Below, piece by piece: positions 11,512 through 55,192 of a DNA stretch of 64,000 nt; within the stretch, counting starts at the first letter, position 1; the number at the start of each line of letters is the position of its first letter. The stretch covers positions 310,001-374,000 of the forward strand of contig NZ_JACHGW010000003.1 of the NCBI RefSeq assembly GCF_014202505.1, given 5' to 3'. This DNA comes from Armatimonas rosea (GTDB lineage Bacteria; Armatimonadota; Armatimonadia; Armatimonadales; Armatimonadaceae). The notes beneath the pieces were generated by a model. It was given only the letters and a program-made list of their open reading frames with translations, searched no databases and was not told where the DNA came from. Both the position numbers and the translations under genes were made by a program.

Positions 11512-13296
11512 ATGCTCCTCGCGGGATTTCACGCAAGCCCCTGGTTTGCCGAGCAAGTCCGCGAGACCTGGCTCGCCCCCGACGTGCGCGTCGTGCTCAA
11601 CGCACCGCTGGCCTACGACCCCGCCAAGCCGACCCGCCTCGTAGTCTACGCGACACCCAATGGCAACACGACCGAGCAGACCCTCGGCTGCCAGCGCTCC
11701 GAGCTTCTCAAGACCGACTGGCACTTCGATATCCAGCATGTCGCCGCCCAAGTCCGACTCCTACGAGAGAGAGGGGCCAAGCGTGTGGACGGTTCCGCAT
11801 TCCTCGACGGTAAACGTCGGGCTATAGGGCCTTCGGCCGCCTCCTCGTGCCTCGTCGGTACAAGCTTATTCCGAGCGGAGCGAGGCGGCGGAGGAACGAC
11901 GCCCTATAGCCGGACGTTCACCGTCCAGGCGGTGCCCAGGGGGGAACGCGATACCAATCTGGTGCTGGCTTGCCTGGAAGCGAGTGGGCTGAGCTGGCCG
12001 GCGTGGCGACAGAAGCACCCTGACAATGCCGTACTCATCCGGCGCATGATCGACACGCTTCGGGCACCCTTCCCCGATGCGAGAGTGGCGCTCACGGGCC
12101 ACAGCGGCGGGGGGAGCTTTCTCTGGGGCTTCGTCAACGGAGGCGAGACAATCCCCGAGTGGGTGGAGACAATCGGGTTTTTGGATGCCAACTACAGCTA
12201 CTCGGACACGGACCGGCATGGGGATAAGCTGCTTGCGTGGCTACGTGGCGGCCGGGAGCGCCGGCTCACCGTGATCGCCTACGACGACCGAGAGATCACG
12301 CTTAATGGAAAAAAGGTGGTCGGCCCCGAGGGCGGGACCTTCCGTGCGACCGAGCGCATGCGCACCCGCTTCGCCCGTGAGCTGACGCTGGTCGAGAGCA
12401 AGGCAGGGCCGGTGACAACCAATACAGCTCTTGCCGGGCAGCTCGTGCTCCGTGTCCACCAGAACCCCAAGAACGCGATCCTGCACACCGCACTTGTGGG
12501 GGAGTGGAACGGGCTCCTGGCGGTGCTGGATCCGTCGCTGCCGTTCTCGGAGCCGCGTCGCTACACGACGTACATCCAGCCCGCGCAGGGGATTCCGCCC
12601 CGCCCCAAGGAAGCGCCCGGCGGCACGGAGCTCTTTGCACGCCTGGAGAAGCTCCCCCTCGCCGAGCGTGAGGTGCTGCTGCTGGCCGAGCTGCTCCGTG
12701 GCAACCTCCCCGAGTTTCTACGCAAGCCCGCCTCGGTCACACTTGGCCCCCTCACGGTCTCTGTCCTGCCCGACTACCTCGCGGTGGGGAGCGACACCGA
12801 CTTTATCCGCACCCCGCTCACTCCCCTGACCGCTCAGAAGCTCGCCGATGCCTTTGGCTGTCTTCTCCCGACCAAGCTCTTGGTGGATGCGATCTACCAG
12901 CAAGCCGCGCTCACGCTAGAGCCACAGCCCCTCACCGAGGCGCGCGAGGCCATGAGCACGTTTGCCCAGCACAGCCGCGGGATCGACGAGCAGCGGGCAG
13001 GAAAGCCGCTGGGCCTGCTGATCGCGGGGATCAAGAAAGATATCGTCTTGACCAACCGGCTGAAAGAGAAGCCTAACCGGGTCGCGATCTACGGCTGGCA
13101 CAAGCGCGACGGCCAGCCGATCCAGCCGCTGACGATTGTCCACAAAGACACCTATGTCGACTACAGCCATGGCATTCGCCTGATCCAGCGCACCGGACTC
13201 CTGAACGGAAAGCCCTGCGACCTCCCGACCCTCCTCCACGATCCCGTGCTCTGCAAGCTCCTCAGCGACGAAGGCACGGTCGAGGGAAGTCTCTAG
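11512..13296 (+). CDS. Alpha/beta hydrolase carrying an in-frame palindromic insert
   Basis: The 594-residue protein has the nucleophile elbow ALTGHSGGGSFLWG near residue 200 and the acidic stretch LDANYSYSDTDRHG that could hold the catalytic Asp, so the fold is an alpha/beta hydrolase. Residues about 98-138 (GKRRAIGPSAASSCLVGTS and onward) come from a 120-bp repeat (11806-11925) with inverted ends. Because 120 is divisible by 3, the reading frame survives. The sequence resumes with the plausible strand TNLVLACLEASGLSW. The C-terminal 270 residues are not recognised. No signal peptide. Whether the insert is tolerated as a surface loop or kills the enzyme cannot be told. The stop shares CTAG with the convergent TauE gene. 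Confidence 0.7.
   Translation: MLLAGFHASPWFAEQVRETWLAPDVRVVLNAPLAYDPAKPTRLVVYATPNGNTTEQTLGCQRSELLKTDWHFDIQHVAAQVRLLRERGAKRVDGSAFLDGKRRAIGPSAASSCLVGTSLFRAERGGGGTTPYSRTFTVQAVPRGERDTNLVLACLEASGLSWPAWRQKHPDNAVLIRRMIDTLRAPFPDARVALTGHSGGGSFLWGFVNGGETIPEWVETIGFLDANYSYSDTDRHGDKLLAWLRGGRERRLTVIAYDDREITLNGKKVVGPEGGTFRATERMRTRFARELTLVESKAGPVTTNTALAGQLVLRVHQNPKNAILHTALVGEWNGLLAVLDPSLPFSEPRRYTTYIQPAQGIPPRPKEAPGGTELFARLEKLPLAEREVLLLAELLRGNLPEFLRKPASVTLGPLTVSVLPDYLAVGSDTDFIRTPLTPLTAQKLADAFGCLLPTKLLVDAIYQQAALTLEPQPLTEAREAMSTFAQHSRGIDEQRAGKPLGLLIAGIKKDIVLTNRLKEKPNRVAIYGWHKRDGQPIQPLTIVHKDTYVDYSHGIRLIQRTGLLNGKPCDLPTLLHDPVLCKLLSDEGTVEGSL
11806..11925. mobile_element. MITE-like palindromic element, copy A (inside a gene)
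   Basis: The 120-bp element has near-perfect 25-bp inverted ends: the left reads GACGGTAAACGTCGGGCTAT plus AGGGC, the right is its complement with two mismatches. The interior shares CCGCCTCCTCGT and CTCGTCGGT with copies at 51980-52117 and 52901-53017. It lies in frame inside the hydrolase gene. It contains no transposase, so it would need one in trans. Confidence 0.75.
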
Positions 13297-51979: not shown

Positions 51980-52117
51980 TTGCCCTCGACGGTAAACCTC
52001 GGGGCTGTAGGGCGCTTCGCGCCGCCTCCTCGTTCCTCGTCGGTAGTCGGTGAAACGAGATCGCGAAGCGCGGCGACTTGCTCGCCCCATAGCCCCGAGG
52101 TTTACCGTCGAGGGCAA
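51980..52117. mobile_element. MITE-like palindromic element, copy B
   Basis: Arms 51980-52012 and 52085-52117 match over 31 of 33 positions: TTGCCCTCGACGGTAAACCT, then CGGGGCT. The element begins 2 nt after the helicase stop. The inner part shares CCGCCTCCTCGT and GTCGGT with copy A. Confidence 0.8.
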
Positions 52118-52871: not shown

Positions 52872-52900
52872 CCGCACGCCGACGGCACCACCGCCGCGTG

Positions 52901-53017
52901 GACGGTGAACGTCCCGCTATAGGGCGAGCAAGTCGCCGCCTCGCTTCGCTCGGAAATCTTAACCGACGAGGCACGAGGAGGCGGCGCGAAGCGCCCCATA
53001 GCCGGATGATCTCCATC
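52901..53017. mobile_element. MITE-like palindromic element, copy C
   Basis: The left arm GACGGTGAACGTCCCGCTAT (52901-52920) plus AGGGCG is close to copy A. The right arm (52992-53017) is degenerate, with about six mismatches. The inner CGAGGCACGAGGAGGCGGCG is the complement of the block seen in A and B. Probably an older copy. Confidence 0.65.
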
Positions 53018-53034
53018 CTGGCTGGGGTGGGTTC

Positions 53035-55050: not shown

Positions 55051-55104
55051 TCCGGGTAAAAATAACTTGGCAACTCGGGCAATGAATGACCCGGCTGGGA
55101 GGAG

Positions 55105-55192
55105 GGAGCGCCCCGTGGGCGCGTGAAACACAGCGTTCTCCGCGCCCACGGGGCGCTCCTTGCCTTCTGCCGAGGCTTTCAATCCCCGGCTC
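55105..55192. repeat. 19-bp perfect palindrome plus TTTCAATCCCC tail
   Basis: GGAGCGCCCCGTGGGCGCG (55105-55123) and its exact complement (55141-55159) face across 17 nt. A CTTTCAATCCCCGG block follows. The same two blocks recur at 59205-59415 and 59785-59850. Confidence 0.75.

Follow-up and report, generated by a model that had tools for sequence, protein, structure and literature searches.

An in-frame REPIN-like palindromic element in an alpha/beta-hydrolase gene of Armatimonas rosea

A gene for an alpha/beta hydrolase of Armatimonas rosea contains, in frame, a palindromic element that belongs to a repeat family of the same genome. The gene lies in a stretch of 64,000 nucleotides (positions 310,001 to 374,000 of contig NZ_JACHGW010000003.1) that we refer to as the window, and the coordinates of the features are collected in Table 1. 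We think it likely that the insert is a REPIN-like, non-autonomous element, probably spread by a Y1 transposase, which came into the gene as a composite adding 57 codons and is tolerated as a disordered loop. In-frame mobile palindromes are already well documented in other bacteria; what is new here is the repeat family.

The extent of the insertion is given by homologues of the hydrolase collected from a search of 41 genomes and a species-level genome collection, which come from Planctomycetes, Armatimonadetes, Ignavibacteria, Bacteroidetes, and other groups. At the position where the window protein has 61 residues, the alignment shows exactly 4 in 74 of the 74 homologues, so that 57 codons (171 nt) have been added, with borders that are ambiguous by a few codons. 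The added residues follow a conserved helix (DIQHxAAQxRxLR..) and precede the strand that comes after it (NxVL..). On both sides of them, the reading frame and the homologues are collinear, no homologue carries the segment, and the alignment reveals no other window-specific insert of at least 5 residues in the hydrolase. A preliminary description of this DNA had reported a 120-bp element with 25-bp inverted ends at 11806-11925, adding exactly 40 codons. There is indeed a 120-bp palindrome at this position, in frame and free of stops within an ORF of 594 codons, and its 25-bp ends are present, although they are complementary at 23 of 25 positions rather than perfectly; the palindrome, however, accounts for 40 of the 57 added codons. 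Judged from comparison with L005 and other copies, the remaining codons are a degenerate extra REP unit at the left (11781-11801) and about 20 nt of filler at the right. Could the whole segment instead be native protein sequence that turned palindromic by chance or through selection on the mRNA? The open reading frame is the one point in favor of this idea, which we consider extremely improbable given the absence of the segment from all 74 homologues and the presence elsewhere in the genome of about 65 copies, mostly intergenic, the best of them 89-96% identical.

The arms of the larger palindrome run from 11802 to 11853 and from 11878 to 11929, and the element has the layout of a REPIN, in which inverted REP hairpins on the two sides of a spacer fold into one long hairpin. 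Folded as RNA, positions 11801-11930 reach -81.8 kcal/mol on the plus strand, compared to -50.8 ± 3.8 kcal/mol for shuffled sequences (z = -8.1), and the minus strand gives z = -9.1. The window palindrome is open in one of its six frames, and this is the frame of the hydrolase ORF. On our reading, a REPIN together with one additional REP unit would have entered the hydrolase gene as a composite, and the 57 codons would have been gained in frame and without a stop by chance.

Table 1. Features of the hydrolase gene and of the palindromic repeats in the window
Feature	Position	Strand	Sequence or basis
Host gene, 594-aa alpha/beta hydrolase (GHSGGGS nucleophile elbow, Ser198)	11512..13296	+	ORF
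Inserted region, codons 87-148, including 57 additional codons	11770..11955	+	Alignment; the 74 homologues have 5 residues in this span
Putative degenerate extra REP hairpin unit	11781..11801	+	GCGTGTGGACGGTTCCGCATT, compared with GCGTGGACGGTAAACGTCCCGCATT of copy L005
REPIN-like palindromic element	11801..11930	+	REP hairpin, structured spacer, inverted REP hairpin
Left REP hairpin	11802..11826	+	CCTCGACGGTAAACGTCGGGCTATA
Right REP hairpin, inverted orientation	11909..11930	-	GCCTGGACGGTGAACGTCCGGC on the minus strand
Second window copy, intergenic, directly after a helicase stop codon	51979..52118	+	
Third window copy, between convergent genes	52893..53024	-	
Second-family copy	55073-55192		GGGCAATGAATGACCCGGCTGG...GCCGAGGCTTTCAATCCCCGGC

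The repeat family is much larger than the three related copies implied by the preliminary description. A DNA search of the genome found about 40 copies, and a covariance model built from 30 of them found about 65 at full length; 67 family loci of this genome were fetched and inspected. The two further window copies that had been described at 51980-52117 and 52901-53017 are real relatives of the element, and both are intergenic. Three copies are present in the one genome searched of a congeneric sister species, and none were found in 10 other genomes of the same taxonomic family, so that by sequence search the family is restricted to the genus. The copies have an invariant core, GCCTCCTCGTGCCTCGTCGGTA, flanked on both sides by exchangeable hairpin segments (GGGCCTTCGGCC, GGGCGCTTCGCGCC or GGGCGAGCAAGTCGCC; CCGAGCGAAGCGAGGCGGC or CCGCCGAAGGCGCGGC). 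The terminal unit, AGCC-N-GGACG-GTAAA-CGTCC-GGCT, varies through compensatory swaps (G-C/C-G and C-G/T-A): among 132 distinct units, and with the kinship of the copies ignored, complementarity beats that of all 500 column shuffles at five stem pairs, namely, (9,17), (7,19), (6,20), (4,21), and (2,23), and for three of the stem pairs RNAalifold reports 10, 7, and 3 double changes. These compensatory changes indicate that the terminal hairpin is maintained, as expected for a substrate recognized in the form of folded single-stranded DNA or of RNA.

Seven matches to Y1_Tnp are present in the genome, six of them intact tnpA genes (L079-L084), each flanked by its own, different inverted repeat of 26-105 nt, and one of them a remnant (L085). 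The ends of the hydrolase-element family were found on none of the six intact genes, but they do flank the remnant, a decayed Y1 gene (positions 1268-1840 of L085; G000 C1, about 923.5-924.1 kb) that has suffered a mid-protein in-frame loss of about 38 residues. The flanking arms are 31 nt long and 94% complementary; a full element sits upstream of the gene, and a half element is fused to its 3' end, where it supplies the stop codon. The layout corresponds to that of published REPtrons (PMC6006769). Three intact tnpA proteins scanned against NCBIfam score above the IS200 cut-off and below the REP_Tyr_transpos cut-off, and the remnant matches the IS200 model only, below its cut-off. In view of these scores, the name that we use for the element is REPIN-like, and we make no case for a canonical RAYT. 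The family would have spread in the past, probably by means of an IS200/IS605-type Y1 (HUH) transposase whose cognate gene now appears to be decayed.

The six intact tnpA genes have a common upstream motif, TTTATCAGATTTGG...CCGTTATAGGGG. From the repeat next to L079 we recognized a second family of palindromes, with about 40 copies and a like architecture, and ends of this family flank an intact IS200-type tnpA at G000 C1:1548188-1548529. Aside from the palindromic copies, the window contains the gene for the bacterial small SRP RNA (Rfam RF00169; 61130-61221, minus strand), which was the only hit in an Rfam scan of the window.

Exact flanking direct repeats are seen at 5 of the 67 copies (L007, 22 bp; L009, 12 bp; L015, 13 bp; L017, 14 bp; L066, 17 bp), separated from the element ends by a few filler bases, and two copies, L197 and L199, have decayed flanking repeats. 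Repeats of 12 bp are reached in 4 of 4,422 mismatched flank pairs, so that about 0.06 such copies would be expected. We know of no target duplication in Y1 transposition, which would therefore not be expected to leave the direct repeats of the five copies. Their excess over the mismatched pairs, together with the filler bases and with the second family, which sits beside an intact tnpA and has no flanking direct repeats of at least 10 nt, would suit movement of a MITE by an ordinary DDE transposase, or its capture in staggered-break repair, with the link to the Y1 tnpA being accidental. The repeat lengths of 12, 13, 14, 17, and 22 bp vary, unlike DDE duplications, and the fixed-length target site duplication that is the criterion for a DDE-type MITE was not found among the 67 copies. 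Terminal hairpins with compensatory changes, such as those of this family, are typical substrates of Y1 enzymes, and the family ends flank a tnpA remnant; a DDE or repair origin thus appears unlikely. It also seems doubtful that the family inserts by duplicating 12-22 bp of target with filler, for example through staggered-break capture or primed repair synthesis, rather than by the duplication-free single-strand transposition assumed for Y1/RAYT systems, and that the hydrolase copy arrived in the same way. At the hydrolase copy itself, the flanks give no significant sign of a target duplication (P = 0.32). Spread by a Y1 transposase remains the explanation that we favor.

The host hydrolase matched no family in Pfam or NCBIfam, and its best Foldseek matches are a polyhydroxybutyrate depolymerase and esterases (E = 2e-6). 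Its own family, of about 580 aa, is widespread, with at least 308 matching loci, and has no Pfam or NCBIfam model. The window protein retains all 85 of the 85 positions conserved in at least 95% of the homologues, compared to 92-100% for other members. The AlphaFold model, built with 60 aligned sequences, has a mean pLDDT of 88 and a pTM of 0.82; pLDDT falls below 50 only at residues 89-144, between helix 77-89 and strand 149-157, and is mostly >90 elsewhere, so that the inserted residues are modelled as a low-pLDDT loop in an otherwise confident alpha/beta hydrolase. In the canonical topology of this fold, loops that run from helix to strand lie on the face opposite the active site. The insert would thus extend as a disordered loop from helix A to the strand that follows, and it may be tolerated because this loop would face away from the active site. 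The hydrolase seems to tolerate the mobile-DNA insert, and the conserved residues and the model together suggest that the protein is made and active. Alternatively, the insertion may have inactivated the hydrolase, in which case the open frame would mark a young pseudogene that has yet to decay. Predicted disorder of the insert fits such a history, as does the finding that this is the sole clear in-gene copy among the 67 loci, which suggests that coding insertions are normally purged. We nonetheless give inactivation a low probability, since every one of the conserved positions is intact, the frame is open across 594 codons, and the extra REP unit at the left is apparently about 6 nt, a multiple of three, shorter than its counterpart in L005.

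The family as a whole is repetitive and predominantly extragenic, as REPINs are. Flanks were scored by codon usage, with the score trained on the window (sensitivity of 85% and false rate of 7% per flank), and the hydrolase copy is the only one of the 67 loci with both flanks coding in one open frame. One composite copy, L071 (G000 C8:158276-158423), joins the 5' end of a gene for a secreted protein in frame; the fusion reads ATG-KLSR, then the element, then VLGILGALLVTLPATAQ. The stretch from the element to the hydrophobic core lacks a usual start codon, and the signal peptide would come after about 55 element-encoded residues. Where a large open frame runs through one of the other copies, it nearly always belongs to a gene that starts downstream of the element; for this reason, L002, L003, L004, L006, L012, L016, L018, L061, L064, and L066 were not accepted as coding insertions. 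We likewise rejected the possibility that the element is shaped for coding: copies have on average 2.74 of six frames open, compared to 2.30 in Markov shuffles, which is a weak effect at most, and their lengths show no preference for multiples of three.

Palindromes that add codons inside genes without a stop are known as Rickettsia palindromic elements (RPE), which are often genic. The likeness to the window element, drawn from descriptions rather than from sequence, lies in a palindrome that adds stop-free codons, and the difference is that here there is one clear genic case among 67 loci. What the preliminary description had said of a mobile-type palindrome in frame in the hydrolase, absent from its homologues, holds, but its emphasis on Rickettsia finds no support. 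In-frame intragenic REPs have been catalogued in many free-living bacteria, in a set that includes Opitutus (O. terrae), R. conorii, and Thauera, and intragenic GTAG/CGTC REP clusters encode up to 43-82 aa (PMC3733652, Di Nocera et al. 2013). These resemble the present case as in-frame REPs in genes, although repeat family and host are different here; in the hairpins that we inspected, CGTC lies within the stem and no GTAG tag was seen, so that neither is present as an unpaired tag. The QMITE1 and QMITE2 elements of Coxiella burnetii are short inverted-repeat elements that sometimes lie in frame in ORFs (PMC5896051), but they are described as MITEs without a REP-doublet structure, again a comparison of descriptions and not of sequences. 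Close counterparts are REPINs, in which short inverted REP hairpins surround a spacer in elements of about 120 bp that occur in many copies, nearly all extragenic, and have ends adjoining a Y1 transposase gene (PMC3116915, PMC6006769). The family of the window element shares the paired hairpins, size, copy number, and extragenic bias, and its ends flank a Y1_Tnp remnant. It differs from REPIN/RAYT systems in that no 5' GT[AG]G tag was seen, the tnpA genes match IS200 and not REP-associated transposases, the cognate tnpA has decayed, and long direct repeats flank a few of the copies.

This genome bears on the question of how REPINs move through its compensatory hairpins, its decayed cognate tnpA, and its second family with an intact tnpA; the few copies with direct repeats may preserve a trace of insertion. 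Because the 74 empty homologues set the insert at exactly 57 codons, the hydrolase offers a clean natural test of loop tolerance in an otherwise intact enzyme. What the present case adds is therefore an exact, homologue-defined insertion in a conserved enzyme, combined with evidence on the movement of the element.
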